Positions 19,626 through 35,901 of a DNA stretch of 45,116 nucleotides are shown here, one piece after another (positions within the stretch are counted from its first letter, which is position 1; every line of letters begins with the position of its first letter). The stretch covers positions 1-45,116 of IMG/VR virus record IMGVR_UViG_3300044970_002690; one strand, given 5' to 3'. The translations under genes were made by a program, and so were the position numbers. Below the pieces are notes generated by a model. That model searched no databases. It was not told the DNA's origin and saw nothing but the letters and a program-made list of their open reading frames with translations. This DNA is from a virus.

Positions 19626-20576
19626 CTACAGAACGTGAGTGGACTTGCTCACGCCCTTCACGTTTGCGATCGTAAGGCCGATGACCTCCATCGCTTGCAT
19701 CGTGAGGATGTGCTTCTCCTTCTTCACGTAGGTCGTGATATCCTGCAGACGATATGCACGGCCCAGGTAGCCCGGCTCGGCGAACTTGTACACCACGTAG
19801 TCGGGAACGATCGTGCTCTTGATCGTCGCGATGTGCGGGATGTTCCAAATGCTGTACTCTTCGAGCGCTTCGAGGCCCTTGAGGACAAACTTCTCCGAGA
19901 GGTCACCACCGGCTTCGTCACGACGCCATTTCAGGAATTGTCTGGACGAAAATCTATTGGTGACCCAACAGCCATTATTGAGCGACATATTCTCCAATTC
20001 GGAGATGTTGTCCACGTAGAGTTCGCGGCTGATACGGCCGAGACGCTCGAAGTTCTGCTGGAGACCCGACGCGCCGACGCCCGAGGGGCTGCCGACGATC
20101 TGGTCCACAGTGCCGAAGAACTTGCTGTCTTCCTTCGTGTGGATCTCCTTCAGCGCATTGGCCGTGGTGATCTCACGAATGTCAGTCTTGTAGTTCATCA
20201 GCTCGAACGTGTTCTTTTGGAACTCGTTGGTCTGGACGACGTAGAAGATGACAGCGAATTTTTCCCCGCGGAAGAATTCAGTATCACCGGTGTCGTCGAA
20301 GTTCACCGCGGACGAGCCGAGGATGTCACCTTCCATCTCTTCGATGATCCAGGGCTTGCTGTCCGCGTAGAGGCTGTCGCTCAGATTGCTCTGATTGACG
20401 TCCTCGAACGGAAGCACGCGGCGCTGGATTCCGTTTTCACGGAGCTTGCGGCGGATGAGGCGCGAAGAAAGGTCGGACGCCGTCTTGAGCTGCCCTTCGG
20501 GCGCGCGGACGATGGCATCGACGAGTTCCTCGTTGAGAACTTCGGGTTCCTGAATCTGGTCTTGATTGATATTCAT
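19626..20576 (-). CDS. Major capsid protein (HK97-fold), probably proteolytically processed
   Basis: A 316-residue protein placed after protease, scaffold-like and decoration-like genes and before a strong terminator, as major capsid genes are. The composition fits a HK97-fold shell protein: an acidic helical N-arm, a long alpha segment with Glu/Gln/Asn/Phe around 135-165, a Gly-rich loop near 190, and a C-terminal segment with a Leu-Gln-Asp-Ile helix and final strands. Residues 31-34 are K-T-A-S, the same motif found near the N-terminus of the internal proteins. Cleavage after Ala33 would remove an acidic N-terminal arm, like the delta domain of other phages. AAGGA lies about 13 bases before the ATG. 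Confidence 0.8.
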   Translation of the reverse strand: MNINQDQIQEPEVLNEELVDAIVRAPEGQLKTASDLSSRLIRRKLRENGIQRRVLPFEDVNQSNLSDSLYADSKPWIIEEMEGDILGSSAVNFDDTGDTEFFRGEKFAVIFYVVQTNEFQKNTFELMNYKTDIREITTANALKEIHTKEDSKFFGTVDQIVGSPSGVGASGLQQNFERLGRISRELYVDNISELENMSLNNGCWVTNRFSSRQFLKWRRDEAGGDLSEKFVLKGLEALEEYSIWNIPHIATIKSTIVPDYVVYKFAEPGYLGRAYRLQDITTYVKKEKHILTMQAMEVIGLTIANVKGVSKSTHVL

Positions 20577-20600
20577 TGTGATATGTTTTCCTTAAAAAGA

Positions 20601-21155
20601 CTAGGCGGAGGCCCCGTTGGTTTCGAAGTTGGTGGCGATGGTCAGCACGAGGACCTGGCCGCTTCCATCCGGCGTGACGCCAGGATTGGAGGCTGCGATG
20701 TCCACAGGGCCGGTGCCGCGGGAAAGATACCCGAGGGTGGCGCGATCCGTGGTGAGGGCCGTGGTGACGTCTCCCGTGGTGCCGTCGGCCTTGAGGCGCA
20801 CTCCGTGGGAGTAGGCGACCGTGTCGGGGCTGGCTTTGAAGAACGCGGTCTGCAGTTCGTTCTGATCGAGCGTGGAGACGCCGGTCAGACCACCAGATGC
20901 GACGACATCGAAATCGTCAGAATCCTGATAGGCGAAGAAGGGGATCTGGGTCGAGGACGAGACCCCGATCTGCCAGACTTCTGCGCTGCTCACGATATTG
21001 ACGCTGATCACCTGACCAGACGCGATGGTTAGCCCATTGGTGGGAAGCGATTTGTTGCGGTTGAGGCCCGGATTGAGCGGGTTCCAACCACGCAGCATCT
21101 TCATGTGCGGTTTCGCGCTCTGAACGATGCCATAGGCGGGTACTGTTTGGCCCAT
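20601..21155 (-). CDS. Capsid decoration-like protein
   Basis: A 184-residue protein directly before the capsid gene, with 24 bases between them. It is beta-rich with Thr, Gly, Val and Ser, has no Cys and few charged residues after residue 45. The N-terminus has a short basic part with two Met and a Trp. Size, composition and location match head-stabilising or decoration proteins. The leader is A-rich (repeated CAAAAC-like elements) and lacks a Shine-Dalgarno motif. No direct family recognition. Confidence 0.5.
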   Translation of the reverse strand: MGQTVPAYGIVQSAKPHMKMLRGWNPLNPGLNRNKSLPTNGLTIASGQVISVNIVSSAEVWQIGVSSSTQIPFFAYQDSDDFDVVASGGLTGVSTLDQNELQTAFFKASPDTVAYSHGVRLKADGTTGDVTTALTTDRATLGYLSRGTGPVDIAASNPGVTPDGSGQVLVLTIATNFETNGASA

Positions 21156-21195
21156 AATGTTTTGTGCTTCTTGTTTTAGGTTTTGTGTTTACTGC

Positions 21196-21717
21196 TCACG
21201 CACCTTTGCGGACCATCTCAGACCAGTCCTCTTTGTCGGAGGCCTGGGCATTGACGGGCAGCGCGGATGCGCGTTTCACCGAACGTCCCGCTGTCGGGGC
21301 ATTCGTCGAAAGATTTGCCGAGAGGTGCTGGAGCACATCGAGGGCGTAAGAGGGATCGGAACGGAGGCTGCCTGCCATCTTCACGGCGAAGTCGGGCGAG
21401 CAGAGATTGGCGGATTGCAATGCCGCCACGGTTTCGATGATGGCATTCTCCGAGAAGACATTCCGCGGCGCATTGTTTGCGCTGGCGATCTTCTCCAGCC
21501 GCACCTTCTCCAATTCAATGACGCGACCATTGGCTTCCGCCAGCTTGGCGCGGACGCCGGACAATTCATTGCGCACGCCAGTCAATTCCTGGTCCTGTGC
21601 GGCAATGCGGGCCTCGGCGGCTTTCACCATACCAAGCACCTCGGCAACCTGCCCGAGGGATTCATCCACGATGTTGCGGACTTCCTCGTCTGGTAGTTGG
21701 GTATTCGGGTCGGACAT
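21196..21717 (-). CDS. Coiled-coil protein, possible scaffold or core component
   Basis: A 173-residue protein. Residues about 10-85 form a long heptad-like helix rich in Glu, Ala, Leu and Arg, a strong coiled-coil candidate. A short helical domain follows (about 88-135, with one Cys) and a flexible, Ala/Ser-rich C-terminus with K-R-A-S. It sits between a scaffold-like gene and a decoration-like gene. Coiled-coil proteins there often belong to the internal scaffold or core. It could also be a structural protein of the mature head. Confidence 0.5.
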   Translation of the reverse strand: MSDPNTQLPDEEVRNIVDESLGQVAEVLGMVKAAEARIAAQDQELTGVRNELSGVRAKLAEANGRVIELEKVRLEKIASANNAPRNVFSENAIIETVAALQSANLCSPDFAVKMAGSLRSDPSYALDVLQHLSANLSTNAPTAGRSVKRASALPVNAQASDKEDWSEMVRKGA

Positions 21718-21738
21718 GGTGATTGTGAATGGAAAGGA

Positions 21739-22926
21739 TTAGCGTTTGATTCCGAGGAGGGCTGCGGCCTTTTTGGCGATCTCTTCGCCTTCGGGTTCCA
21801 TGGCCTCTTCAGCGTCGCCTTCGGTCGGAGGAGGACCACCAGCGCCTGCGCCGGCATCCAGCGGAGGCGTGCCGCCTTCACCGCCACCAGCACCGCCCAT
21901 GAGGGCCTCGACGACCTGCTGCGCCTCTTCCAGCGGAATCTTGCCTTCCTGGACGAGCTGTTCGAGGACGGCGATGATCTCCTCAGGAGATGCCTGCGCC
22001 TCGGGCTCCGCTGCGCCGGGGAATTCCTCGGTCGGGATTGCCTCGGGGCCTGCCGCTTCCGGCGGCATACCAGCTTCCGGCGGCATACCGGCGGCCGATT
22101 TGGTCGTGCGGCTGAGAATGAAATCCGCATCGAGGATGCCCTGGTTGTAGGCGTCGTTCAATTCGGGATTGAGACCATTGCGCGCCGCCTCATGGGCATT
22201 GGCGAATTTGATGGCCTGCTTCTGGTCGGCGGGCGAGAGCTGGTCAAATGCCTGCTTGATCATTGCATTCTCGTAAGCGGCCTGCTTTTCCCACTGGTCC
22301 TGCTGACCGGCAGCTTCGATGAATTGCGCATGGGCGACGTAGGCGTTCTTGATAGCGCCGAGGGCCTCATCCGCGCCGAGCTTGCGCTCCATGGCTTCCT
22401 GCACACCGGCGAGCACTTCCTCATTCTCCAGCACGAAGCTGGCGAGCTTGAAATGGAATTGCGGGTCGCGGGGATTGATGAGGTTGTCCACGGAACTGCC
22501 GGCGACCTTGGCGGCCGGAGCGGCGGCTGCGGAGGCCGCTGCGGTTTTGTTCATGAGGGCCGCTGCACGCTTTGCGAGTTCCGCGGCTTTGCCGGCGAGC
22601 TTCTTCGTATTGAAATCGGGGTTCGGGTCAATTGCGGGCTGTGTGGTTGTCGAAGGCACGTTCTCGCCAACCGACGAAGGCTTGGTGTCTTTGGTCGCAA
22701 TGTCCGTCGGCGCTTTGCCCTGCTCGCCATCCCTCGGGAGCATCAGCTTCTTTTTGTCATCGCCGTCCTGCTTGGGGGCCGATGCGCTGCCTTCCGAGAA
22801 AATGGCATCAGTCGGACCCGAGTCCGGATTGGTGCCACCACCCATTGGGGAGCTGGCGGATTTGGGCTGCAAAAGCGCAGAAGCGTTTTTGACGAGGTCG
22901 GCGTAGGATTTAATGGCGGTGCTCAT
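21739..22926 (-). CDS. Scaffold-like acidic head protein
   Basis: A 395-residue protein. I chose ATG at 22926 because the longer frame would run into the protease gene and reads like non-coding sequence. The N-terminus has L-V-K-N-A-S at residues 11-16. A Ser/Pro/Asp-rich region follows, then an Ala/Lys helix with several K-x-A motifs (about 170-200), a helical core, and an acidic Pro/Gly/Glu-rich region (about 275-375) ending in a basic helix. A Gly-Met-Pro-Pro-Glu-Ala unit is repeated twice by an 18-bp DNA repeat near 22060-22095. Acidic middle and basic C-terminal helix are typical of scaffolds. Between protease and capsid is the usual scaffold position. Confidence 0.6.
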   Translation of the reverse strand: MSTAIKSYADLVKNASALLQPKSASSPMGGGTNPDSGPTDAIFSEGSASAPKQDGDDKKKLMLPRDGEQGKAPTDIATKDTKPSSVGENVPSTTTQPAIDPNPDFNTKKLAGKAAELAKRAAALMNKTAAASAAAAPAAKVAGSSVDNLINPRDPQFHFKLASFVLENEEVLAGVQEAMERKLGADEALGAIKNAYVAHAQFIEAAGQQDQWEKQAAYENAMIKQAFDQLSPADQKQAIKFANAHEAARNGLNPELNDAYNQGILDADFILSRTTKSAAGMPPEAGMPPEAAGPEAIPTEEFPGAAEPEAQASPEEIIAVLEQLVQEGKIPLEEAQQVVEALMGGAGGGEGGTPPLDAGAGAGGPPPTEGDAEEAMEPEGEEIAKKAAALLGIKR

Positions 22927-22978
22927 TGGATTGATTGGATTGGATGTTGAGTGATTTGGGATTTGATTGCAAGAAGGA

Positions 22979-24481
22979 TTACTGTGCGCAGAAATTATTG
23001 TGGGCGGCAACTGCCAATTCCTGCTTCGCATCAATTCCCTTGGGGTGGTTGGTGCGGATGGCGGAGAGGGCGGCGAGCTTGTAGAGACCGTAGAGACCTG
23101 CCATGCGTTCAGCGGCGGACTTCAATTCAGTTGGCACCGCGGCGAGCAATTGCAGCTGAGGCAATTCGCTGGCGGATTTGATGATCGTGATTTTCAGGAT
23201 GCGCCGGCGGGCCGGGGCTTCCTCAATTGAAAATTTCTTTTCGGCGGAATCCAGCAGGCCTTCCACCGGGTCGGTCACTCCACCATCCACCCCGGTCACT
23301 CCGGGCGTGCTGCCCTCAAATAGATCAGGGCTGATTCCACCGCAGCCGCAGCCATCGCTGAGCAGGCGGTTGAACACATCTGGCAGCAATGAGCAGGCGG
23401 ATTTGACGACGGGGTCATTGCTGACCTCGACAATTGAACGGTTGGTGGTGTAGGCCAGGAAACTGCGGAAGGGAAGGATGGACGCGCGCTTCGCCAATTC
23501 ACCGAAGAACGTGCCGGGGCGCAGGGTGCGGACGGTGGTCAGCTCGGCATCGCTCAATTCACCATCGAGCAGTTTGGATCCCATCTCGTAGGCGTAGGCC
23601 AGCTTGGGATTGCCGGAGAGGGTACGCAGGTCTGTGTGTTTGAAGGCATCATTGAGCCAGGTCTCGTGCTCTGCCATGCGCTGCAATTGCGCCTGCTTCT
23701 CAAATCCCAATTGCAGGCCGCCAGTGTTTTCATTGAGTCCATAGAACGCAGCCCAATCCGTGCCGGTGATGATTTGGGGCTTTGCGCTGGCGGCTTTCTT
23801 CATGCCCTCGTCGCCGTGGAACATGTATTGCAGGTAATGCGCTGTGCGGTCCGCCGGGTATTTGACGTCGCTGATGTCGAAGAAGGTCGGGTGGTCGTTC
23901 CAGACGAAGGCGTACTTGTTGAACTCAGGCATCCACTGGTTCATGTGATTCTTGGCGTGATCGCAATACTCAGTCGGACTGGGGGCGAGATTACCACAGC
24001 AGTTGCAGCGATCATTGGGAACGCGCGCAGACATTGAATCGCTGCGGGCACTGCCCTTCTTTATGCTCTCGTAGATATCCTCGCATTTGGAAATCTCCCC
24101 ATGAACGATCAACTCGATGCGGGACATCGTCGGATTGTAGCGGGCGCATTTGACGGAGCCGATGGCCAGCCGGCGATTGGCGTGGTTGTGCTCCCGGAAA
24201 TAGGCGCCATGCGAAACGAACGTCGGATGGTATTTGGTGTTGGCGTCCTTGGACCAACCGTCAGCATTGCGGTTCTGCCCGTAGATCTCGGTGTCACCCA
24301 TTGCCACCAAATGCTGTGCGAAGAATCCCTTCGGCGGTCGGTATTGTTCCAGCAGGCTGCGCGGCATCACCTCCGAGGCGGCGGACTTCACCCTGGCGTC
24401 GAAATCCAGAAAGCGGGACATCACGCCTCCGCAGGCTTTGAAGAGGGCGTCCTGATCGTCTTGGTGGTGGGTCTTGATCAT
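22979..24481 (-). CDS. Prohead maturation protease
   Basis: A 500-residue protein. Residues about 55-155 match the phage prohead protease pattern: an Asn-x-Asn-x-Asp-Gly-Trp segment, a Tyr-His-x-Thr-Phe-Val strand, a His-Asn-His pair of candidate catalytic histidines (98/100), an Ile-Gly-Ser-Val strand, a Met-Ser-Arg-Ile-Glu strand, and a Ser-rich Met-Ser-Ala-Arg segment with candidate nucleophiles Ser149/Ser151. A cluster of Cys159, Cys161, Cys162, Cys173, His175 and His179 follows and may bind zinc. The C-terminal 300 residues are extra. K-S-A-A occurs at 32-35 and several K-x-A motifs occur later, suggesting self-cleavage. ATG at residue 21 is an alternative start. Confidence 0.75.
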   Translation of the reverse strand: MIKTHHQDDQDALFKACGGVMSRFLDFDARVKSAASEVMPRSLLEQYRPPKGFFAQHLVAMGDTEIYGQNRNADGWSKDANTKYHPTFVSHGAYFREHNHANRRLAIGSVKCARYNPTMSRIELIVHGEISKCEDIYESIKKGSARSDSMSARVPNDRCNCCGNLAPSPTEYCDHAKNHMNQWMPEFNKYAFVWNDHPTFFDISDVKYPADRTAHYLQYMFHGDEGMKKAASAKPQIITGTDWAAFYGLNENTGGLQLGFEKQAQLQRMAEHETWLNDAFKHTDLRTLSGNPKLAYAYEMGSKLLDGELSDAELTTVRTLRPGTFFGELAKRASILPFRSFLAYTTNRSIVEVSNDPVVKSACSLLPDVFNRLLSDGCGCGGISPDLFEGSTPGVTGVDGGVTDPVEGLLDSAEKKFSIEEAPARRRILKITIIKSASELPQLQLLAAVPTELKSAAERMAGLYGLYKLAALSAIRTNHPKGIDAKQELAVAAHNNFCAQ

Positions 24482-24487
24482 TTGAAA

Positions 24488-25639
24488 TTACGGGGCGACG
24501 TGCGTGGGAAGACCACCGAAGGTTTTGTCCAATATGTCCGGAAGATAATAGCCCACGCCAGCGGCTGCCAGGCCTTTGGTCAGGCGGCCTTTGGCCAGGC
24601 GTTCAAATCCGCCGCGCGCTCCAACGCGGGCGCGTTCGGTGGCTGCGCTGAGTGCATCACGTAGTGATGGGGCAGATGCACCGATGACCCCAGCACCCCC
24701 ACTAGCTCCGCTCATTCCGGAGATGTCAGGCATGCGCCCGAACAAAGATTTGCTCCAGTCTTTCAATGGGCCGAAGTCCGTCTTTCCGTAATTGATTCCA
24801 GCACCACGCAGTTTGCCGAGCAGCCCGCGGGTTTCATCATGCCCCAATGCCCCACCTGCGAGATTCTGCATTTCGCTTTTCGCGAATACACGACCCTTGC
24901 CGGTTAATTTGTCTTTCAAATTGTCCAAGATGCTTTGCTTGGCTTCCACGAAGACTTGCGGGTTAGCTGTTGCACCTCCCTGAGTCAGCCCATTGGCACC
25001 AGGGCGAATGCCGGGGAGCTTTTCCGAGATGTGCACGATATCCCTTAATGGGTCTTTCATGAATGGGGTCTTGCGTGTCGTCCACCCATAGCCTCCGAGT
25101 CCGAACAATGCTCTAATTTGCGGACTATGAAAGAGTGTCGATCCTGGGGATTTGTCATTCTTGGGCAGCGCATTCATGATTTTGTCTACCCCGTGGCTCA
25201 GCGCTGCGGCAGAGCCTCCGCCAAGCAATCCTGCGAGCAGCGCATTGCGTCCGACACGCATCGTCTTGCCTCCAAATCCCTCACCAGGGCGGCGATCGGT
25301 CATCATGGTGCCGATGCCGCCGGCAGCCGCAGAGCCCAGCCCGGCGAGCACTGCGGGGTCTTCGTAGGTCTTCGAGTCCATGACCTTGTTTCCCACCTGC
25401 GTGGCTTTATCCTTCACCCAACCTGCACCATCGGAGAGATTCTTTTTGAGGGAGTCCATCCACCCAGCATGTTTGACGCCGACGGAAATGAGGCGGTGCC
25501 GTTCGGCAATTGAATCCGCAAAGGGAAGCTCACGCGCTTCACCGACTTTTACGCCGTGCTCCGCAGCCGCTGCAGTGCAATGGGCAAGGACGGCGCTGGC
25601 GGCTTTGATGAACAGGGAATTGATTTCAGTTGGTGCCAT
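24488..25639 (-). CDS. Glycine-rich internal virion protein, possible ejection protein
   Basis: A 383-residue protein. The N-terminus carries I-K-A-A-S at residues 11-15, like its head-region neighbours. Residues about 95-160 contain two Gly/Ala-rich hydrophobic stretches of the glycine-zipper type, separated by a basic loop. A second Gly/Ser-rich region lies around 300-330, and the C-terminus has another Gly-rich hydrophobic stretch. Such proteins can insert into membranes, as the ejection proteins of podoviruses do. Position next to the protease supports a virion role. No family recognised and the function is inferred. Confidence 0.55.
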   Translation of the reverse strand: MAPTEINSLFIKAASAVLAHCTAAAAEHGVKVGEARELPFADSIAERHRLISVGVKHAGWMDSLKKNLSDGAGWVKDKATQVGNKVMDSKTYEDPAVLAGLGSAAAGGIGTMMTDRRPGEGFGGKTMRVGRNALLAGLLGGGSAAALSHGVDKIMNALPKNDKSPGSTLFHSPQIRALFGLGGYGWTTRKTPFMKDPLRDIVHISEKLPGIRPGANGLTQGGATANPQVFVEAKQSILDNLKDKLTGKGRVFAKSEMQNLAGGALGHDETRGLLGKLRGAGINYGKTDFGPLKDWSKSLFGRMPDISGMSGASGGAGVIGASAPSLRDALSAATERARVGARGGFERLAKGRLTKGLAAAGVGYYLPDILDKTFGGLPTHVAP

Positions 25640-25649
25640 TGGAAAAATG

Positions 25650-26021: not shown

Positions 26022-26027
26022 GGTGAA

Positions 26028-27533
26028 TTAGGCGTAGCGAGCGTCTTCAGTTCTGGCTCGGGTCTCTTCGGCCTGCGAATGGGATTTGTCGATATCGGCG
26101 AGCGTCTTATGTGTCTGGATGGGCACACCGCCGTATTGCAGCGCCTCACGCAGGGCGAAGCGTAGCTGATTGGGATTGTGCGCAATGCGCGGGTCGCCCT
26201 TCTGCAAATCATTGGCGAGGTCCACGAGATGCTGCGGATCGGCCTCCCCGAGAATCGGGTCGGTCATGATCAGGCGCTGCAGGTTGGACACGAAGCTCAC
26301 ATCCCGGACGGCATGGTCAATTCCCTTCTGGCGAAACTTGGGTGCATATTTGCTGTCGCCGGTGGCCTTCATCTTGTCGAGGATGCCGGGCATTGCACCG
26401 ACCGTCTTGCCAACGCTCCCCTTGGGGATGAAGTCATTGATGGCGTCGATGATTTGGCTGGCCGTGTCCTTCTTCGCCGACCCTCTAGGGGTGGGCGCAT
26501 CGCGCTCGGGCTGTCGGCTGTTTCTAGGGGTGGGCGCATCGCGCTCGGGCTGTCGGGTGTTCTGCTGTCGGGTGCGCTGGGCTTGCTGCTGCATGGTTTC
26601 CACGCGACCACCTATCGAAGCAGCAGGACTCTGTTCCGTCTGGGTCCAGTCCGCGGCAGGTGCTGCATCGTCCCGCTCTCCCGTATCATCCACATCTGGG
26701 ACCTGCGGCTCTCTGGTAAATGCCAGCTTCTCAAACTCCTCCGTCTCCTGCTTGGCGAGCAGCGCATAGGCATTGTGCAATTGTAGGGCATCGGCGGCCG
26801 TCTTGATGAGCGGCAGGACATTGGTGCGATCGTGGAGCAGGCTGCGCTTGGTAGCCACCTTCGTCCAGGGCGTCAATTGCACCGAGACATGCGCTGTGGC
26901 CTGCTTGACTGCCGCTTTGAAAATCATCTGCCCCTCGGCGTCTGCCAATTGCGAGACGTCCTCTTCCATTTGGGCGAAGAAGGGCTTGTTGGCGCCGATG
27001 TATTTGGCGAGCTTGGTCACCGCAGTGCGATACAGTGCGCTCTGGTCCTCCTGCAAATCACCCAGCCGGGCGACATTGATTTCCGTGACGCGGCGGGCAG
27101 CAATGAGGGCGGCGGCCTTTTCGCCGGGAGTCGGGGGCTTTGCTGCGGGCTCCGCAAATGCCATCTTCTCAACCGGATTGTTTAGGGGCTTCTTGCCGGT
27201 CGCGCCGGACATGAAACGGGGAATTGGTTTGTGCTCCGCCGGCTTGGTGTCGGGCTTCTTGTCCTTGGCCGCCGCCGGAGCCTTGTAGGTGCCGTAGTCC
27301 GAGGCCAGCTTCACGGTATCGATGAGGGGAATTGAAGCGCCGCGCTGATCGGGGTTGTTGTCCATCCAGGCCACGGAGCGCGCCGTATTCAAAGTCATCG
27401 CCATCTTCGTGAGCTGCTCAGGGGCGAGATTGTTCTCCCGTGCGTAATTGATGAGGATGTCCTCGGCGCTGGCAGATTTCTGAATCTGAGGCAGGAGGCT
27501 TTCAATGACTTCGAGCACGCGACTTGGTGACAT
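26028..27533 (-). CDS. Large internal virion protein with K-x-A motifs
   Basis: A 501-residue protein. The N-terminus has Q-K-S-A-S at 18-22, then a helical segment with an Asn-Leu-Ala-Pro-Glu-Gln-Leu motif and an Asn-Thr-Ala-Arg helix, then Arg-Gly-Ala-Ser and a Leu-Ala-Ser-Asp-Tyr-Gly strand. That layout feels familiar from structural proteins of other large phages, from memory only. Six or more further K-x-A sites follow. A Lys/Pro linker lies near 90-140, helical domains around 140-270, and a Gln/Arg/Pro linker with a 13-residue direct repeat at about 325-355. The C-terminal 130 residues are helical. It is probably packaged in the head and processed there, by analogy. Confidence 0.6.
   Translation of the reverse strand: MSPSRVLEVIESLLPQIQKSASAEDILINYARENNLAPEQLTKMAMTLNTARSVAWMDNNPDQRGASIPLIDTVKLASDYGTYKAPAAAKDKKPDTKPAEHKPIPRFMSGATGKKPLNNPVEKMAFAEPAAKPPTPGEKAAALIAARRVTEINVARLGDLQEDQSALYRTAVTKLAKYIGANKPFFAQMEEDVSQLADAEGQMIFKAAVKQATAHVSVQLTPWTKVATKRSLLHDRTNVLPLIKTAADALQLHNAYALLAKQETEEFEKLAFTREPQVPDVDDTGERDDAAPAADWTQTEQSPAASIGGRVETMQQQAQRTRQQNTRQPERDAPTPRNSRQPERDAPTPRGSAKKDTASQIIDAINDFIPKGSVGKTVGAMPGILDKMKATGDSKYAPKFRQKGIDHAVRDVSFVSNLQRLIMTDPILGEADPQHLVDLANDLQKGDPRIAHNPNQLRFALREALQYGGVPIQTHKTLADIDKSHSQAEETRARTEDARYA
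26484..26556 (-). repeat. 34-bp direct repeat, 39-bp period
   Basis: Two identical 34-base copies (26484-26517 and 26523-26556) with a period of 39 bases, encoding a tandem 13-residue unit R-Q-P-E-R-D-A-P-T-P-R-x-S in the linker of the 501-residue protein. The identity shows a recent duplication. Confidence 0.9.
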
Positions 27534-27583
27534 ATGGGAATGCTGAACGATTTGTGCGGCGGTCGCAAGCCTGCGTTGCGAAA

Positions 27584-28837
27584 TCAGCGCTTTGCCAACC
27601 GACGGGCCAGTTCCCGCAATGAGGCAGTCTTGTTGATCTCCTGTCCGTTCTGCACAATGCCCGGAACCACAGTGCGCTGCCAGTTACGGATGTTGTCGTA
27701 GATTTCCGGGCTGCGCTGATTTGTTTTGCGCATCTGCCGGAACATGCGCTGGGCATCCAGTGGGTATTGCTGAATCCCCTTCTCGAATTGCGACTCATCG
27801 GGTTGCGTGGGATTTACTCCCTGTAAAAACTTGTCGTAATCCTGCGGGCTTTCAAATCGCTTCCCGGTGTTCTGGTATTGATGCTCCTGCAATTGCGACA
27901 TGTAATCCCGCATCTCGGCAGAGTGCACATCATGATGCAGGTTGCCATACACAGGCAATTTGTTCTGTTGCTTCAGCGTCTCGCGGAAATGCACCGGACG
28001 TTCTCCAGAAGGACGCCTCGACCAATGCAGCCCACTTCCCATGCGCGGCTGATCAGGATATGGGGTCGCATACGTGGGGACATATTTGTCTGGATGCTCC
28101 AGGCGTAAAGCTGCAGTGTCGTAAGCATCCACCCCGGTACCCGGCGGACTTGCAAGCGCTCCGTGATACGCCTCATGCTTCAGCGAATCCTCATCATCCA
28201 TTAACGATTTAGCCGCCTGCCTGGCTGTCATGTTCGAATCTCGTAGACCCTCTGGATCCTTGAGGACGCTGTCTGTAAACTTCCGTCTCTCGTCCGAACC
28301 CCACATGTGGACGCTGTCAGCGAGCGGGTCGTAATGTGGCCCGAAAACTGCGGCATCCGCATCATTGCGCAACACCGGCACCGGCTGCGTCCATTTATTT
28401 TGATCTCCTGGCAAACCGGATGCTGTATTGTAGGCATGCGCCTTTTCCATTTCGCTTTGCAGGTTATTTCCGTAATACGGTTGCTTGTAATATGCTGGGG
28501 TCACGGAGGACAGCGTAGGCCCGGCAAATGCGGAGGGAATTGGCTTCACAGCGGGGGCGCCTGTTGCTTGCGGCGCGACGCCTGCCCTAAAACCACCGCC
28601 TACCACCTGACTTGTTGGCGGTGGTGGGGTGGGTGTGGGAGGCTGTGGTAATTGACTTGGTCCCGTAAGGAATGAGGGTGGTGGAGTCTTACCTGTCACG
28701 CGGTCCCATACGTCACCGATTGATTTTGGCCATTTGAATGCGGACCGTCCTGCTGGTGGTGAAGAGACAGAAGGCAGAGCCGGAGCAGCCAGCTTCACCA
28801 TGCTCATCCGTGCTCCCAATATGCCGGGCGTCATCAT
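27584..28837 (-). CDS. Virion protein with Pro-rich linker and HExxH motif
   Basis: A 417-residue protein. The first residues, best read from the second ATG (28834), match the shared tag: M-T-P-G-I-L-G-A-R-M-S-M-V-K-L-A against M-N-P-R-L-F-G-A-Y-L-S-T-V-K-S-A in the next two tagged genes. A Pro-rich linker covers about 50-105. The domain from about 120 contains His221-Glu-Ala-Tyr-His225, an HExxH zinc-protease motif preceded by an acidic helix, and further His residues near 290-315. The C-terminus has K-T-A-S and a basic end. A zinc peptidase acting on the cell envelope or on head proteins is possible. The HExxH may also be chance. Confidence 0.55.
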   Translation of the reverse strand: MMTPGILGARMSMVKLAAPALPSVSSPPAGRSAFKWPKSIGDVWDRVTGKTPPPSFLTGPSQLPQPPTPTPPPPTSQVVGGGFRAGVAPQATGAPAVKPIPSAFAGPTLSSVTPAYYKQPYYGNNLQSEMEKAHAYNTASGLPGDQNKWTQPVPVLRNDADAAVFGPHYDPLADSVHMWGSDERRKFTDSVLKDPEGLRDSNMTARQAAKSLMDDEDSLKHEAYHGALASPPGTGVDAYDTAALRLEHPDKYVPTYATPYPDQPRMGSGLHWSRRPSGERPVHFRETLKQQNKLPVYGNLHHDVHSAEMRDYMSQLQEHQYQNTGKRFESPQDYDKFLQGVNPTQPDESQFEKGIQQYPLDAQRMFRQMRKTNQRSPEIYDNIRNWQRTVVPGIVQNGQEINKTASLRELARRLAKR

Positions 28838-28852
28838 TGCTGGTATTTCAAA

Positions 28853-29365
28853 TCAGAGCTGCGCGATCAATGCGCCGAAGATGCGGGGGTTGATGGATGC
28901 CACTTTCTTGAGCTTCGCGCGCCGCGCCTTTTCCTCATCCTGTTTAATTGCATGCCCGGAGGAAATACCTTGATGAGCCGATTTGACAGTGGAAAGGTAG
29001 GCGCCGAAAAGACGCGGGCTGATGGACGCCTTCTTTTTACTTTCCTGCTCTTCGCGTAAATCCTGCATCACCTGCTTTGGGAGGATCAAACCATGCAAAC
29101 CCGACAGTCCCGCACCTGTCACGGAACCAATCCCTGCCCCGGCGACCGGCAGCGCCAGAAGATGCAACAGGATTTCTTTTGTATCCATATTTGCGTAACC
29201 CTTGCGCGCAATACGGTTGAGGCCCACACCCAGACCCACAGCAGCGCCGCCCAAGGCATTTCCTCCCGCATGTCGCGCGATATTGGACCCGGCGGCTTCG
29301 AGTCTCGAAGACATATCAGCTGATTTGACTGTGGAGAGATACGCACCAAAAAGACGAGGATTCAT
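28853..29365 (-). CDS. Small glycine-zipper protein with three copies of the head tag
   Basis: A 170-residue protein. It starts with the tag M-N-P-R-L-F-G-A-Y-L-S-T-V-K-S-A. A near-perfect second copy occurs internally after K-K-K-A-S, and a shortened third (I-N-P-R-I-F-G-A-L) forms the C-terminus after K-K-V-A-S. Between first and second copies lie two Gly/Ala-rich hydrophobic stretches (about 35-50 and 70-95) that could span membranes. A charged Lys/Glu helix separates the later copies. Cutting after each K-x-A would release the central glycine-zipper part. It looks like a small ejection or membrane-active internal protein. No family recognised. Confidence 0.65.
   Translation of the reverse strand: MNPRLFGAYLSTVKSADMSSRLEAAGSNIARHAGGNALGGAAVGLGVGLNRIARKGYANMDTKEILLHLLALPVAGAGIGSVTGAGLSGLHGLILPKQVMQDLREEQESKKKASISPRLFGAYLSTVKSAHQGISSGHAIKQDEEKARRAKLKKVASINPRIFGALIAQL
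28977..29023 (-). repeat. 47-base head-tag repeat, internal copy
   Basis: The second copy of the tag-encoding sequence, inside the 170-residue gene. It differs from the other two by a handful of bases, mostly silent in the tag peptide. A shorter, decayed copy encodes the C-terminus near 28857-28895. Confidence 0.9.
29319..29365 (-). repeat. 47-base head-tag repeat, start of the 170-residue gene
   Basis: Encodes the first 15-16 residues of the 170-residue protein. The 18 bases nearest the start codon match the copy at 35855-35901 exactly. Confidence 0.9.
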
Positions 29366-29409
29366 ACTCCCGTCAGTCTAAACGAGAGAGAGAGCAAGTC
29401 GATTCCAAA

Positions 29410-30351
29410 TCAGTTCACCCCAGCCCCAGACACTTCCATCGTCGGCTTCCCGCGGTAGAACTCCGTGGTGCGCTTGGCGTGGGCTGCGGCTTTGACCCGC
29501 TGCATTTCCGCCATGAGCACCTGACCGCCCGAGTTCTGGAACGGAGAGGCCTTCTCATCCTGCCCGCCTGCCTTGGCGGCCGAGATAAGCCGCAGGGCTG
29601 AATTGACCCCATGCCCGGCCTCGGGCCCCTGGTTGAGCCAGCCGTTCATCGCGAGGATGAGCCCGTTGGCCATGACGAAAGATTCCAACCGCTGCACGGT
29701 ATCGGCACTGAGGTATTTGGTCACGAGCTGGGAGGAGAAGCCGGCCAGATGCAATACATGCGCCGCGCCATTGTTGAAGCCAGCCCGGAGCAATTGCACG
29801 TCGAGCCCCTCGTTGGTGGTGTAGCCATTGAAGAATTCCACCGCGCGACCGTTCGGGTAAATGATCGAACTGAGGAATAATTCGTCCGCCTTCCGATCCC
29901 AGATGTTGAAGAAGAGGATCTCGTAAGCGGAAATTACCTCCTGCTTTTTGTTCAGCACTTTGGCGATCTTGTCCAAATCCATATCGCCCGAGACCAGCAG
30001 CGCATTTGCGACGGACCGCTCCTTGGCGTAATCGGCACCCATCCATGTGATGGCTTCGGCCAATGCCTTGTCCTTGTATTTGATCGGATTGATGGCGTAG
30101 AGGTAGGCCCGCCACACCCATTCATCCCGTCCGTTCAATGGCACCTGCATGGGTCGTCGGTTGAACGCCATGGTCCTGGCGAAGTTCCAGCCGAAAGACA
30201 GATCCTTGTAGGCAGTGGCGAACCGACCAATCTCCGGGTCCGTAATGCCCACCTGCGTATCCGCGGCACGGATGCGGAAGTTGTCGCGAACGATGTCCTC
30301 TTCCGGTGCGGGCAATATCCGGCACATTTGATTGATGCGGTCGGCTTTCAT
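29410..30351 (-). CDS. Helical protein with HTH-like segment, unknown function
   Basis: A 313-residue protein. I chose ATG at 30351, which overlaps the upstream stop as ATGA; the frame upstream is non-coding in character. Residues about 100-170 contain two helices followed by an Ile-Ala-Lys-Val-Leu-Asn turn and a Tyr-Glu-x-Leu-Phe-Phe-Asn segment. This resembles HTH-containing phage proteins often found near packaging genes, from memory only. The rest is helical with a Gly/Asn-rich middle. It lacks the N-terminal K-x-A tag of its neighbours. It could be a DNA-binding or terminase-associated protein, but this is not shown. Confidence 0.55.
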   Translation of the reverse strand: MKADRINQMCRILPAPEEDIVRDNFRIRAADTQVGITDPEIGRFATAYKDLSFGWNFARTMAFNRRPMQVPLNGRDEWVWRAYLYAINPIKYKDKALAEAITWMGADYAKERSVANALLVSGDMDLDKIAKVLNKKQEVISAYEILFFNIWDRKADELFLSSIIYPNGRAVEFFNGYTTNEGLDVQLLRAGFNNGAAHVLHLAGFSSQLVTKYLSADTVQRLESFVMANGLILAMNGWLNQGPEAGHGVNSALRLISAAKAGGQDEKASPFQNSGGQVLMAEMQRVKAAAHAKRTTEFYRGKPTMEVSGAGVN

Positions 30352-30620
30352 AAAAGATTCGAGGCCTCTGATTTGAATTCCGACAGGGCATCCTGCATAT
30401 GGGCCGCATTGATGGCGCCTCTGCCAGCGCCGGACAATTGCTCGCTCACGCAGCCACCCACCTCGACAATGATTTCCCGCAGGGATTCCGGATGCTTCTG
30501 TGCGAACAGGAATGCCGCCCAACGCCAGAGCTGATCGCGCAGGCATTGCGTATGCATCTCGTCCATTACGCTTTCCATTTCGGTGAGGGCGTCTTCGATT
30601 GTGGGTGTGGGGGACTTCAT
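30348..30620 (-). CDS. Small helical protein, unknown function
   Basis: A 90-residue acidic protein starting with ATG at 30620, which overlaps the stop of the tiny membrane protein upstream (ATGA); its own stop overlaps the next start in the same way. Helices carry Glu, Met and Leu; Trp, Phe and two Cys lie in the middle. Three consecutive 4-base overlaps show tight translational coupling. No family recognised. Confidence 0.65.
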   Translation of the reverse strand: MKSPTPTIEDALTEMESVMDEMHTQCLRDQLWRWAAFLFAQKHPESLREIIVEVGGCVSEQLSGAGRGAINAAHMQDALSEFKSEASNLL

Positions 30621-30745
30621 TGGGCGATAGCCAATTCGACGATATACCACCCCAGCCGAAGGAAACAGCCGAAGAAAATGGCAGTGACTGCGACGACAAC
30701 AGCGTCACCGACATTTCCCTTTGTGCGTTCAGGTCTGGGTTCCAT
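30617..30745 (-). CDS. Tiny single-pass membrane protein
   Basis: A 42-residue product with ATG at 30745. A charged N-terminus (Glu, Arg, Lys) precedes a hydrophobic stretch of about 25 residues with Val, Ala, Phe and Trp. The stop overlaps the next gene start as ATGA, which supports it being real despite its size. Role unknown. Confidence 0.55.
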   Translation of the reverse strand: MEPRPERTKGNVGDAVVVAVTAIFFGCFLRLGWYIVELAIAQ

Positions 30746-30792
30746 ATGAGAACCAGCATTCAACACCCCACACCGCGCGTCCAGCGCAAATG

Positions 30793-33700
30793 TTACGCCA
30801 TCGGGGCCGAGCCCTGATCCGCGTTCGGCGATTTGCGCATCAGATTGAGCACCATGTCGCCAAAGGATTTGAAGTTGGAAATCAATTCCTGCTCGATATC
30901 AGGCGTATCGTCCTGGCCGTATGCCTTTTCAAAGTCAGCCGGCTTCCAGAAGAACAGGAACAGCGAACGCCCGATAGCATCGAGGCCCTCCTCCATCTTG
31001 GGAATGTAGCGCTCCATGCTGGCCGCGGCGTCGAACGTCTTGATGAGCGAGCCGATGAGCTTGTGCTCAAATACATTGGGCAGGTTCTGAGACTTCTGGA
31101 TGTCCGCCAATTGCATTGGGTCCTTGGTCAGCATGTCTTCCATGCCGACATGATCTTTGATTTCGTGGCGATCGGAATTCATGGAGCCGCCCATGGACGG
31201 GTCGTGCACCTCGTTGATACTGATGCTGCGAATTGGTGGCGCGTCCGTGCGGGTGCCTAGCTCGAAGCTCTGTGGCTCCTGCTCGCGCGCCATCACCTGG
31301 CTATCGTAGCCTTCCGTGAAGCGTGGACGATCAATCAGGCGCGTGACGGCCATTGCATGCTTCTCCTGCGGCTGCATGATGAACGAGACCGACTTGCCCG
31401 ATGCGACATTACCGACCAGCTCCATCGCGGCATCCGCGGCGATATGGCAGCCACCGGCGAGGAAGGCAACGGCTGCAGCCTTGGTGTGCGTGGTGGCGTA
31501 TTTCCGGCCGCCGAAATTGAGGGAGATCTTTCCGCTCTCATCGAGCATGGAGATTTGCCCCTTGAAGAGTTTCCCATACAGCAGCGAATCCCACACCACT
31601 TTTTGCGGCATGAGGGAAGGCGCGGCGACGAGGCGCTTGCAGGGGATCTCCACAGTGCCCAGCGAGGAACCTCCGCCGGCTGCCGCGCGATGATTGGCGT
31701 TCTCGGGGAGCTCCTCCAAATCCATTTCGATGAAGCGGACCTCTCTATTGAGGATGCCATGCTGCCAGTCGCATTTGGGGGCATCGGGATTCAGGAGCAA
31801 TTCCATCTCGCCGTAGCCGGAGATGTTGTAGGTATCGACGCTGTTGCAAATCAGCGTCTTGGTGCCCGACGGATTCTTGATGACTCCCGAGATGAACACT
31901 GCCGTGTCCGCGCAATTGCCGGACTTGGGATTGTAAATGACGTAGGCCTTGCCGGCGGTCGGGCTCTCCACGCCCACGCTGCTGACGCCGGCCTGTTCTT
32001 CCGGAATCACCTTGCCCACATATGCGCCGACCTCGACCCGCTTCATCGTATTCACCGGGGAGGTGAAGATGAAGGCGAGGCTTTGCGTCGACGAGCCAGG
32101 GTGGCAATTGAAGATCGAAGACCGCGTATTACCAACGCCGCACAATTCCACAGGCGTGGCCGCAATGACCTTGCCGTTCTTGCCGTCCATTGAGGGCATC
32201 TCGTAAACGCCATTGCCCGTCACCGACTCCATGGAGTGGTGGGCGTCTTCATATACAGCCGTCAATTCATCGGAGGGGCGCACATCGGTCATGGAGAAGC
32301 CATGCTTCACCGTCTGGGCGTAAAGCGCAGGGGTGACGCTGGCATTCTTCACGCCACCGAAATGCATGACGAGCTGCGGGACGTAGGCGGCTTTTTTTAC
32401 CTGCGTGATCTCCAGGGCCTCCGCGGGGAGGAATTGCTCCATGTCGCCATTGGTGGCGGTCATCAGCGCTTCAGCAAAGGCGGCCGATTTGGTCAGCGCG
32501 CCATGAATGGCGAGACACGCAGGACGCTTGCCGTCGGTGACGAGGTATTCCCTCAGGGCACCGGCGGATTTGAAAGGGTTGGTGGTGTCCACCGGAAGCA
32601 TCTCGCCCACGTAGGAGGTCCACCAGTCGGAGGCTTCCTTTTCCATGCGCGGGATGAAGCCGGCGGACAATTTGGTGACCGGTAGGCGTGATGTTTTACC
32701 ATAGGCGCGCGGACTGCGCGGACCACCGCCACCGCCACTACCGACCATAGGCCTTTGAGCCATCGGCGCTTTGGACACCGTATTCGGTGTCTTCTTGAGG
32801 CTAGCCCGGTATTGTGCCGGGGTGTAGGTGTTCATGCTATCCAGCCGGGAATGCCCCGGACCGGATCCTGCCAGCATCTTTTGCATGCTGGCCACGTCGC
32901 CGGGAGAACGGGCGTTGAATGTGGATTTGGTGGCTGCGTAAAAGCGCGCCTTGTCTGCGTCCGACACCTGGTTCGGATTGAATGGAAGCGATGGTGCATG
33001 TTCTCCGGGCTGGGGCGGCCTTGCCGAAACAGGCGACTGCTGTAGGTAGCTGGGCGTGGGTTCTTGGGGAGGGGCGGGAGCCGGATCTGCTGAGGCTTCA
33101 TTCTCCACCTCAGCGTTGACCGCTGGTTCCACCGGAAGAGAGAAGGCCCGTGCATTCGCGGCTGCAGAGTCGAGGGGTGCGAAGTCAGAGGCGGGCTGGT
33201 TATTCCCGCGCTCTTGCGTGGGGTGCCCGAACCGTCCATTGCCACCCCCGTAGAACTGAGTCGGCTCCGCCATATAATTCACCTTAGCGTCGAGGGGTGC
33301 GAAGCCAGAGGAGGACGGGGTGCTGGGTGCTGCTGGCGTGATGGGAGGCGGAGGCAACGTCGAAGCACCGGGTGCGGGTGTCGCAGGGGACTGGGGCAAA
33401 TTCGCGCTGCTGGTTGCTTGCGAGGCGGGAGTCGGAGGCAACGTCGAATCGCCAACTGCGGGAATAGGCGAGGGATCAGCGGTAACTTCCGGCACGGTGG
33501 GCGACTTGCCCAGCTGCGTTGTAAGGTCGCCAAACTTAGCTCGCTTCTCCCGCATATCCTCAAATGCCAGAGCCCGCGTAAATGCATCCTCCACGAATTG
33601 TCCGGCATCTTCGCCATGCTCTTCGCGCGCCATCTTGATGAATTCGGAATTGCCCATGCTGGAGGCAATCTTGTTGCGCATCGGCATGATGAGCGGTTTC

Positions 33701-34128
33701 AAATCCGTGCCGGTATTGAGGCGGTCGAGTCGGGTGCGGGCGATGCCCGTGCCGGGCTCGGAGATGGCCTTCTCCATCAAATAGGAAATCCATTCCTCCG
33801 TGCACGGCTTCATCTTCTTCTGCTTCACCTGGTAGAGCAGCTCCTGGCCTTTGACCTGTCCATTGAGGAAGAAGCTCGGAATGTAAATGAGATCCTTGTT
33901 GATGCGGAAGGCGAAGATGCCCACAAGGCGCGTCTTGTCCTCATTGGCGTAGATCATCTCGAAGCCGAGGAAATACGGCGGCTGCATCAGCTTTTGGGCG
34001 CGCTGGGCGCAGCGGCTGTACGCCTGATCGCCGAACGCTCTTTCGATCTCTGGAGTGGAGAGAACTGCGCTGGCATGCTTCTCCCAGTCGTATTGAACGG
34101 ACGGGTCCTGCAAAGTGGGTGTCTTCAT
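30793..34128 (-). CDS. Very large virion protein with Pro-rich linker
   Basis: A 1111-residue protein from ATG at 34128; a TTG at 34170, directly after the upstream stop, would add 14 residues. K-H-A-S occurs at 17-20. Residues about 45-130 form a mixed domain with Tyr-Phe-Leu-Gly-Phe-Glu and Phe-Phe-Leu-Asn-Gly-Gln strands, a pattern I associate with structural proteins of large phages. A linker of about 250 residues is rich in Pro, Ala, Ser and Thr and holds repeated Phe-Ala-Pro-Leu-Asp units. The C-terminal 600 residues mix beta domains and a final helical domain with Tyr-Ile-Pro-Lys-Met-Glu, Gly-Arg-Ser-Leu-Phe-Leu and Phe-Lys-Ser-Phe-Gly. K-S-A-A, K-K-A-A, K-N-A-S and K-E-A-S sites occur along it. 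Confidence 0.6.
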   Translation of the reverse strand: MKTPTLQDPSVQYDWEKHASAVLSTPEIERAFGDQAYSRCAQRAQKLMQPPYFLGFEMIYANEDKTRLVGIFAFRINKDLIYIPSFFLNGQVKGQELLYQVKQKKMKPCTEEWISYLMEKAISEPGTGIARTRLDRLNTGTDLKPLIMPMRNKIASSMGNSEFIKMAREEHGEDAGQFVEDAFTRALAFEDMREKRAKFGDLTTQLGKSPTVPEVTADPSPIPAVGDSTLPPTPASQATSSANLPQSPATPAPGASTLPPPPITPAAPSTPSSSGFAPLDAKVNYMAEPTQFYGGGNGRFGHPTQERGNNQPASDFAPLDSAAANARAFSLPVEPAVNAEVENEASADPAPAPPQEPTPSYLQQSPVSARPPQPGEHAPSLPFNPNQVSDADKARFYAATKSTFNARSPGDVASMQKMLAGSGPGHSRLDSMNTYTPAQYRASLKKTPNTVSKAPMAQRPMVGSGGGGGPRSPRAYGKTSRLPVTKLSAGFIPRMEKEASDWWTSYVGEMLPVDTTNPFKSAGALREYLVTDGKRPACLAIHGALTKSAAFAEALMTATNGDMEQFLPAEALEITQVKKAAYVPQLVMHFGGVKNASVTPALYAQTVKHGFSMTDVRPSDELTAVYEDAHHSMESVTGNGVYEMPSMDGKNGKVIAATPVELCGVGNTRSSIFNCHPGSSTQSLAFIFTSPVNTMKRVEVGAYVGKVIPEEQAGVSSVGVESPTAGKAYVIYNPKSGNCADTAVFISGVIKNPSGTKTLICNSVDTYNISGYGEMELLLNPDAPKCDWQHGILNREVRFIEMDLEELPENANHRAAAGGGSSLGTVEIPCKRLVAAPSLMPQKVVWDSLLYGKLFKGQISMLDESGKISLNFGGRKYATTHTKAAAVAFLAGGCHIAADAAMELVGNVASGKSVSFIMQPQEKHAMAVTRLIDRPRFTEGYDSQVMAREQEPQSFELGTRTDAPPIRSISINEVHDPSMGGSMNSDRHEIKDHVGMEDMLTKDPMQLADIQKSQNLPNVFEHKLIGSLIKTFDAAASMERYIPKMEEGLDAIGRSLFLFFWKPADFEKAYGQDDTPDIEQELISNFKSFGDMVLNLMRKSPNADQGSAPMA

Positions 34129-34170
34129 TTGGTATTCGTTGACTCTATTGGAATTGTGTGTCGTTGGCAA

Positions 34171-35901
34171 TCAGCGACCCATCATTTTGCTCACGAATTT
34201 CGGATCGCGCATTTCCTTTGCCGTATTGCGCAGGAACTCCGGGTCGGACATTTTGTAGGCCATGCCGATGCGGTCGATGATGGAACCATCAGCCTTTCCG
34301 GCGAGATCGTCGAGCATGTTTGAGGCATAGCCGGCGGCACCCTGCACGCCGAGCTGCGCACCGTCATACATCCCTATGCCATGACCAGCCTTCCCCGCAC
34401 CCCAGAGTGAGGTACCTGCACCTAGCATTCCGCCCAACCCTTTGCCGGTACCCGCCCCGCCCGCAAGCACATTCCCACCAAAACGCCCGACGCTACCCAG
34501 CGCTCCCAGCGTCTTCTGCCCCCATTGCGGAAGCTGGTTGAAGGCGCGCATCATTGGTGCCACGCGATTGGTCTGGAATGCAGAATTGGCTGCGTTGGTG
34601 GCGTTGGTTGCAGTGCCGCGAATTTTACGGCCCCAGTCGAACAAGCGGTTTCTCCATGTGCCTGCAGCGGCAGGAGCAGCAGCCCCCAGGCCGGCAACTT
34701 GTGGATTTTCTTTTCCGAGGAACTTCGCCGCGCTGCCAAGCATTTTAGGGATCGCGCGCACTTTATTAGCAATGGCCTTGCCGCCCCAGCTCAGTGCCGC
34801 CGGGAACGCTTTTGCCAGCAAACTGAGGGCATCCTTCTCCATCGCCGCCGACTTCTGCATATTCAAATGCCAGCCGCTATTGCCGGAATCATCCGAGTAG
34901 GCCGTCGGGTCCAGTTGATTCCAATTCTTCAAACCGCTGATGTCGACTTTGGGGGCCTTCAGGGTTTCGAATTGGGAATTGGAGGCAGTTTTCTTTTTGT
35001 CCGTTTTGGTGCGCGTCTTGTCTGCTGGATAAATCGAGTTTTCAAATATGTCCTCATTACCAAGAGGACTGTCGCCCTCTTGTTTATATCGGTCCGGATG
35101 CATGGCTGGTAGCATAAGGGAGGCCACAACTCCACGCCCCATTGGCGAAGAACCAAGTTCTCGATCTTCGGGATCCATATTACCAAGTTCATCTTTCATC
35201 CATGCCTGCAGACGATCATAATCCTTTCTCGGAGACGAGAATAACCGAGTCAGAAGTCTGGGCTCCATTGTGCGCTCGGCGTCTAATCGCACGGAGGATG
35301 CACCATCGGAGGGACCCCAGAGAGACTTAATTCCAACGGGGGTCTTCAGCTTTTTCCAGAATAGATTTGCGTTCTTCTCCTGCGCCTTTTCCTTGTCCGT
35401 TTTGGTGAGCGCCTTGCCGGCGCGGTAGCCCGCATAGGCACCGCCTCCGTAGCCGAGAATCGGCAGCAGGGAGCGCAATGCCGGGCTCTGTATGCCCGCG
35501 TGTTCCAGGGCCTCGGAGGCTTCTGCTCCCAGCATGTGGCCGAGATTGCCGCCCACCCCCGCCGTCATGCCGCGTAACGTGCCGGGCACCATTCCGGAAT
35601 TGCCGGGCAGTGCACCCCCGAGACCACCAAGGGCTGCCGGACCAAACAGCCCCACCATGGAGTTCAGTCCGGCTGCACCCACAGGCATCGGTGTTTCAGG
35701 CATTTTCTGTTTACTCACGCTGTCCATGACTTTGTCGGCCTCTGATTTACCTGGGGATCCGGACGGCTGTGACATGAAAGCTTTGGCCTTCTCCTCCAAC
35801 ATAGCCGTATCAGCGGCATCCTCCGCGGCGGTTGGTTTTGTAGTCCTAGTGACCGCAGATTTGATCGTGGAAAGGTAGGCACCAAAAAGACGAGGATTCA
35901 T
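34171..35901 (-). CDS. Large glycine-rich virion protein with head tag
   Basis: A 576-residue protein starting with the tag M-N-P-R-L-F-G-A-Y-L-S-T-I-K-S-A. Residues about 75-160 contain Gly/Ala/Leu-rich hydrophobic segments of the glycine-zipper type. A charged middle (about 165-330) follows, then K-K-K-T-A-S, Q-K-S-A-A and a long Gly/Ala-rich C-terminal half (about 375-550) with more potential membrane segments. Composition recalls internal ejection proteins that form a channel through the cell envelope. It lies next to the 1111-residue virion gene. No family recognised. Confidence 0.6.
   Translation of the reverse strand: MNPRLFGAYLSTIKSAVTRTTKPTAAEDAADTAMLEEKAKAFMSQPSGSPGKSEADKVMDSVSKQKMPETPMPVGAAGLNSMVGLFGPAALGGLGGALPGNSGMVPGTLRGMTAGVGGNLGHMLGAEASEALEHAGIQSPALRSLLPILGYGGGAYAGYRAGKALTKTDKEKAQEKNANLFWKKLKTPVGIKSLWGPSDGASSVRLDAERTMEPRLLTRLFSSPRKDYDRLQAWMKDELGNMDPEDRELGSSPMGRGVVASLMLPAMHPDRYKQEGDSPLGNEDIFENSIYPADKTRTKTDKKKTASNSQFETLKAPKVDISGLKNWNQLDPTAYSDDSGNSGWHLNMQKSAAMEKDALSLLAKAFPAALSWGGKAIANKVRAIPKMLGSAAKFLGKENPQVAGLGAAAPAAAGTWRNRLFDWGRKIRGTATNATNAANSAFQTNRVAPMMRAFNQLPQWGQKTLGALGSVGRFGGNVLAGGAGTGKGLGGMLGAGTSLWGAGKAGHGIGMYDGAQLGVQGAAGYASNMLDDLAGKADGSIIDRIGMAYKMSDPEFLRNTAKEMRDPKFVSKMMGR
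35855..35901 (-). repeat. 47-base head-tag repeat, start of the 576-residue gene
   Basis: Encodes the first 15-16 residues of the 576-residue protein and is nearly identical to copies at 29319-29365 and 28977-29023, about 6 kb away, in other genes. Confidence 0.9.

Follow-up and report, generated by a model that had tools for sequence, protein, structure and literature searches.

The head genes of a large, uncultured tailed phage, represented here by a 45,116-nucleotide stretch of IMG/VR record IMGVR_UViG_3300044970_002690 (hereafter the window), encode proteins in which the short motif Lys-x-Ala (K-x-A) recurs far above expectation. We consider it highly probable that the phage's own head-maturation serine protease recognises this motif; the cleavage, its order and protein targeting are inferred, and on the sequence evidence K-x-A very probably serves the protease encoded beside these genes both as autoprocessing site and as substrate site. 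The head module occupies window positions 19626-35901 on the minus strand and contains genes for the capsid protein, a 184-residue protein, scaffold-like proteins, the protease and several large proteins that have no Pfam or PHROGs match. Tail genes (window up to about 19500) flank it at one end and an intein-bearing RNA polymerase β′ gene at the other. The window is a 45 kb part of the phage; a circular record of about 185.6 kb with a 95-base end repeat (IMGVR_UViG_3300044715_001611, here G001) contains its sequence identically and appears to be the entire genome.

Expected counts were obtained from within-protein shuffles, which hold composition constant, and the gene sets (13 head, 21 tail and 169 other proteins) were picked by position, blind to the motif. 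Over whole proteins the head set holds 81 K-x-A against 38.4 in shuffles (z 7.7) and 38 K-x-A-[SA] against 7.2 (z 12.2), while the tail proteins (36 vs 34.5 and 6 vs 6.3, respectively) and the other proteins (242 vs 240 for K-x-A) are at chance level. A sequence-only reading of the window had placed K-x-A, usually followed by S or A, near the start of nine head-region proteins, and had made enrichment in head over tail and other proteins a test of its idea. That enrichment is found: K-x-A-[SA] falls within the first 42 residues of 7 of 13 head proteins (0.68 expected), compared with 2 of 21 tail proteins (0.65) and 5 of 169 others (6.1). All nine proteins carry the motif where that reading put it, S or A following in seven of them (the exceptions are the 170-residue protein, with D, and the 576-residue protein, with V), and a 173-residue protein (K32-A-A-E) joins the nine. 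The 954-residue sheath, as had been noted, lacks the motif, and the 184- and 90-residue head-region proteins have no K-x-A anywhere. In the head set K-x-A comes first whether 1200 or 1600 gapped residue pairs are ranked; over the 1600 its z is 6.8, the highest z for any pair across 500 shuffled sets being 5.7. When the genome is scanned in successive blocks, each of about 3500 residues, the head block gives a clear K-x-A peak. The 81 head sites comprise 63 different 9-mers written in mixed codons, so a repeat at the DNA level is not the source of the excess. Two further genes of the phage, both distant from the head module (G001 57543-58625 and 115500-116627), encode proteins with a high density of K-x-A (10 where 2.4 are expected, and 8 where 3.5 are); these proteins are predicted to be extra protease substrates and internal head proteins.

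The identical blind test, when calibrated on six head proteins of phage T4, placed I-x-E first and L-x-E fifth of 1600, and so recovered what is published for the T4 protease gp21, which cuts after L/I-x-E (PMC9026906). In the head set of the window K-x-A takes the first place instead, bearing out the earlier supposition that the specificity differs from that of T4, and no x-E pair with a one-residue gap is among the top six. The window protease would therefore lie outside the glutamate-specific subgroup of T4/phiKZ type, in which Glu stands at P1, the residue just before the cut.

The 500-residue protein of the module is, as predicted from similarity, its His and Ser residues and its gene neighbourhood, a Caudoviricetes head-maturation (prohead) serine protease. 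The profile phrog_18299, ‘head maturation protease’, matches 25 of 39 members of its family (best 4.6e-13), while the sole PHROG match of the window protein itself is phrog_2774, of unknown function. Fold matches in BFVD include gp19 of Bacillus phage G and many annotated prohead proteases (probability 1.00); a sequence-profile search against solved structures gave no significant match. H98 and S149, invariant in 39 protease sequences, are assigned by analogy as the catalytic His and Ser, and the gene adjoins the scaffold and capsid genes in the window and in its relatives Salmonella phage Arash and Vibrio phage D181. In the AlphaFold2 model the predicted local distance difference test score (pLDDT) is high over a domain of about residues 41-215 and below 50 over residues 26-37, placing K32-A34 in a disordered stretch just ahead of the folded domain. 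As a separate observation, residues 159-175 within this domain form a zinc-knuckle-like pattern, C-x2-C-x10-C-x-H, kept in Arash, D181 and the family consensus and seen by eye also in phage G and actinophages. The 316-residue protein is, judged from its model (pLDDT 76.5; Foldseek match to HK97 prohead I, 8fqk, E 5.3e-9), an HK97-fold major capsid protein.

In both proteins the site near the start is conserved. Among 34 capsid homologues K31 and A33 are invariant, although the intervening residue and most other leader positions vary. Of 39 protease homologues 37 retain K32 and 36 retain A34, with A, S, G or E following. Nearly all of 59 proteases have the K-x-A site about 31-36 residues upstream of the YYGSN motif of the catalytic domain, and a conserved site in this place is consistent with protease autocleavage. 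The distribution of K-x-A along these proteins is also uneven. In the protease family observed and expected counts are 56 vs 13.5 in the leader, 32 vs 45 in the catalytic domain and 298 vs 130 in the tail, and in the capsid family they are 34 vs 7.3 in the leader and 20 vs 49 in the mature part. Given this excess in leaders and tails and depletion in folded domains, the motif appears to sit where cutting helps and to be avoided where cutting harms.

For a site profile, 2870 K-x-A occurrences were pooled across 670 non-redundant head-module proteins. It shows L/M/F/I at P5, E/V/T at P4, K at P3, T/Q/V/E/L (not G/P) at P2, A at P1, S/A/E at P1′ and A/V at P2′, giving the consensus [LMFI]-[EVT]-K-x-A, cut, [SA]-A. 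The K of K-x-A lies at residues 21-30 at 4.2 times expectation, compared with 1.5 to 2.3 times over the rest of the protein, and neither R-x-A nor E-x-A shows a similar rise at residues 21-30 of these head-module proteins. The data show where the motif is enriched and where it lies, how well it is conserved, that folded domains are depleted of it and to which family the protease belongs. Cutting after K-x-A by the encoded protease, as the sequence-only reading had proposed, is the most likely explanation. Lys at P3 with Ala at P1 is best read, from these sequence data, as a novel specificity, new within a known kind of system.

Relatives of the capsid protein and protease are encoded by Arash and by Vibrio phages D69, D148 and D181, the capsid proteins of Arash and D181 having 25-28% identity to that of the window phage on alignment. 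K-x-A is again the top pair in the head proteins of Arash (48 vs 23.3; tail 20 vs 22.3) and of D181 (51 vs 22.7; tail 4 vs 10.0). Scanning IMG/VR with a protease profile gave 79 loci, and of 77 related head modules 41 have K-x-A as the top-ranking pair among 1600, a count that includes near-identical contigs and sets related by descent and so does not represent independent events. On the protease tree [LMFIV]-x-K-x-A is above expectation in every sampled clade member, and the K-x-A signal is common to about 60 diverged phages. Another motif was considered for the seemingly negative loci L051-L074 and ruled out, K-x-A being present in their capsid, protease and scaffold proteins; their score is low because other genes dilute the count. 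Nor is K-x-A a mark of all virion proteins, most ‘structural’ proteins of Arash outside the head block having no excess.

Several observations weigh against a protease site. AlphaFold models the capsid precursor with K31-A33 inside a predicted helix (27-48), which would need to open for the protease. Three K-x-A inside the protease catalytic domain (78, 111 and 189) have no S or A after them and are not plausible sites. A PDB fold search with the full protease model returned nothing significant, the search being uninformative, probably because of the low-confidence tail, and neither N-terminal sequences nor mass spectra were found for any member of the clade. The blind test also failed to recover the phiKZ rule from phiKZ head proteins (S-x-E rank 20, A-x-E rank 663), in which K-x-A was not enriched; the test is therefore not always sensitive, and a negative result from it carries little weight.

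The alternative that fares best, unlikely as we judge it, is that K-x-A is a docking motif which binds scaffold, capsid shell or protease and is retained in the mature protein. Such a motif would likewise be expected in repeats and in disordered leaders and tails, and the helical setting of the capsid site is compatible with it. However, the motif's strict position immediately ahead of the catalytic domain, the small residues favoured behind it and its avoidance of folded domains are features of a cleavage site, and the parallel with T4 gp21 sites under the same blind test is exact. Far less probable is that a host protease of signal-peptidase or housekeeping type cuts K-x-A and the phage protease has another specificity: Ala at P1 is reminiscent of host processing enzymes, but one rule holds across phages of Salmonella, Vibrio and unknown hosts, and the motif is restricted to the head module beside the protease gene and present in the protease's own leader. 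That the excess merely reflects Lys/Ala-rich helices and linkers, by chance or by helix periodicity, has almost no probability left, for although Ala, Lys and helix are abundant in head proteins, the shuffles keep composition, control pairs in the head set (R-x-A, E-x-A, D-x-A, A-x-K, K-A and K-x-x-A) are flat against shuffles and the leader K and A are conserved across 34-39 homologues; with the mixed codons, this rules out chance, composition and codon artefact as its source.

The known systems of head maturation closest to the predicted one resemble it in some features and differ in others. As for T4 gp21, with its core proteins gp22, gp67 and gp68 and the capsid-targeting sequence (CTS) of the internal proteins (IP) and Alt, the protease gene lies beside the scaffold and capsid genes, and as in T4 the capsid and internal proteins would lose leaders while core proteins with many sites, the scaffold included, would be cut into fragments; unlike T4, with its L/I-x-E, the site has Lys at P3 and Ala at P1. 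The giant-phage proteases phiKZ gp175 and SPN3US gp245 cut after S/A/G-x-E or A-x-E (PMC10052503, PMC5694885), gp245 reading P3 and P1 (A-x-E) and preferring Ser at P1′ (PMC10052503). The window phage resembles them in a short P3-x-P1 rule, in the many internal head proteins predicted to be cut and in multiple sites per propeptide, and resembles SPN3US in favouring Ser at P1′; their propeptides are often longer than 100 residues, whereas its first site is usually within about 12-35. The head protease Pro of phage P1 cuts the gp23 capsid protein between KAMLE and SVAAEM, with Glu at P1 and Ser at P1′ (PMC9024508), and so has in common with what is predicted for the window phage the removal of a capsid leader and Ser at P1′, but not Ala at P1. 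Glu precedes the cut in all prohead-protease rules we found (T4, phiKZ, 201phi2-1 and SPN3US, plus the mapped capsid site of phage P1), and the literature searched, which excludes most subscription journals, makes no mention of a Lys-x-Ala phage rule. Outside the clade, the protease has relatives by sequence in phage G (gp19, a relative also by fold), mycobacteriophage cluster C (Cane17), Phrappuccino and Gordonia phage Skog, in all of which K-x-A is weakly in excess (z 2.1-2.7). In phage G the excess is chiefly of the hydrophobic-x-K-x-A form (9 vs 3.3). In the actinophages Cane17, Phrappuccino and Skog (L025, L026 and L027) R-x-A is about equally enriched (z 2.6-3.2, and 2.2-3.2 over both pairs), which hints at a [KR]-x-A rule and at drift of specificity within the family.

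The sequence-only reading had also taken the peptide upstream of K-x-A as a targeting tag, and this holds in part. K-x-A is not itself a targeting tag, since copies are numerous in protein interiors and in the protease's C-terminal tail; it would mark the cut, not the address. A candidate address is found in some proteins only: the peptide MNPRLFGAYLSTxK (MNPRLFGAYLST-[VI]-K-[SY]-A) opens the 576- and 170-residue proteins and a third, encoded outside the window and far from the head genes (G001:172907), which also ends with INPRIFGAMLAQLR, and the 417-residue protein begins with a looser version. The copies have several synonymous-site differences. With its best case MNPRLFGAYLST-x-K-x-A, this peptide is a better targeting candidate than K-x-A, and its layout, a short N-terminal peptide common to different proteins and ending at a predicted protease site, is that of the T4-type CTS, from which it differs in sequence. 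The 576-residue, 170-residue and G001:172907 proteins may be internal to the head. T4 Alt is trimmed at both ends (PMC9026906), and DarB of phage P1 carries a capsid localisation signal (PMC9024508). That the clade protease reads [LMFI]-[EVT]-K-x-A-[SA] and that NPRLFGA at both ends of the cargo is an address removed by flanking K-x-A cuts is, taken together, a proposal for which we see an even chance; if it holds, sequence alone would suffice to predict the packaged proteome, even those members whose genes lie at a distance from the head module.

In our putative scheme the precursor proteins would assemble into a prohead, where the protease would release itself by a cut after K32-S-A34, then process the capsid protein after K31-T-A33 and cut each scaffold/core or internal protein at a single [LMFI]-[EVT]-K-x-A-[SA] site or at many, upon which leaders and core fragments would exit and the head mature. 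In at least two window proteins, the third protein encoded elsewhere and probably the 417-residue protein, the removed leader would also contain the address peptide NPRLFGAYLST, which would direct the protein into the prohead in the manner of the T4 CTS. If true, a Lys-x-Ala rule across about 60 diverged phages would add a new class of specificity to this enzyme family, and capsid maturation and internal cargo would become predictable in phages whose head genes go almost entirely unannotated by the domain and phage-family libraries searched. An address peptide with a removable cut would likewise give phages a second way of loading proteins into their heads. The rule is addressable in named isolates (Arash and D181), and blind gapped-pair enrichment, calibrated on T4, is usable on other uncharacterised phages.

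Table 1. Head-module genes, predicted cleavage sites and leader-peptide copies in the window.
Feature	Window position	Strand	Basis
Major capsid protein, HK97 fold, 316 residues; leader 1-33, K31-T-A then S34	19626..20576	-	Foldseek, homologue alignment
Predicted capsid-protein cleavage site, codons K31-T32-A33, cut after A33	20478..20486	-	Alignment: K 34/34, A 34/34
184-residue protein, adjoins capsid gene, without K-x-A	20601..21155	-	Sequence
173-residue coiled-coil, scaffold-like protein; six K-x-A sites, K32-A-A-E among them	21196..21717	-	Place matches Arash gp225
395-residue scaffold/core-like protein; K-x-A 16 vs 5.2 expected, first K13-N-A then S	21739..22926	-	Shuffle count
Predicted head-maturation protease, 500 residues: disordered leader 1-40, catalytic domain about 41-215, K-x-A-rich tail	22979..24481	-	
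Predicted protease autocleavage site, codons K32-S33-A34, directly before catalytic domain	24380..24388	-	Family alignment, pLDDT
383-residue head-module protein, K12-A-A then S	24488..25639	-	Sequence
501-residue head-module protein; K-x-A 13 vs 5.0 expected, first K19-S-A then S	26028..27533	-	Shuffle count
417-residue protein, K15-L-A then A; leader MMTPGILGARMSMVKLA resembles NPRLFGA leader	27584..28837	-	Sequence
170-residue protein, K14-S-A-D; leader peptide three times: N-terminus, middle, C-terminus	28853..29365	-	Sequence
170-residue protein, N-terminal leader MNPRLFGAYLSTVKSA	29318..29365	-	Sequence
170-residue protein, internal leader copy SISPRLFGAYLSTVKSA, K-K-A ahead of copy	28976..29026	-	Sequence
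170-residue protein, C-terminal leader copy SINPRIFGALIAQL, K-V-A ahead of copy	28856..28897	-	Sequence
1111-residue head-module protein; 14 K-x-A sites, first K17-H-A then S	30793..34128	-	Shuffle count
576-residue protein, K14-S-A-V; leader MNPRLFGAYLSTIKSA at 35854-35901; internal K-x-A sites	34171..35901	-	Sequence

The 184-residue protein (Table 1) is predicted to be uncut and is possibly a decoration protein. Beyond the head module, window 39521-42577 (minus strand) encodes an RNA polymerase β′ segment (Rpb1 domain 5) split by an intein with Hint and LAGLIDADG domains, and adjoining it at 38370-39524 (minus strand) is, by eye, a probable GIY-YIG homing endonuclease (CGIYAIFCKPNGKLYLGSAAG). 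More RNA polymerase-like pieces apparently lie at G001 131503 and 162107, also by eye. The polymerase β subunits of Arash (L010 5094) and D181 (L011 7072) start MPKSAS and MPKKAS; K-x-A was considered as a general tag of virion RNA polymerase and rejected, only 6 of 28 related β N-termini carrying it, so that its presence there is no family rule. Two further genes were noted by eye. G001 128237-131269, outside the window, encodes an acetyltransferase-like N-terminal part starting MFTVKKANSDS and a long second part, and its product might be an enzyme packaged in the head. On the tail side, window 1349-4339 (minus strand) encodes a 996-residue protein with Cys-rich repeats around ADxxAxALGLSxLxCxxxNxxxxVxC.

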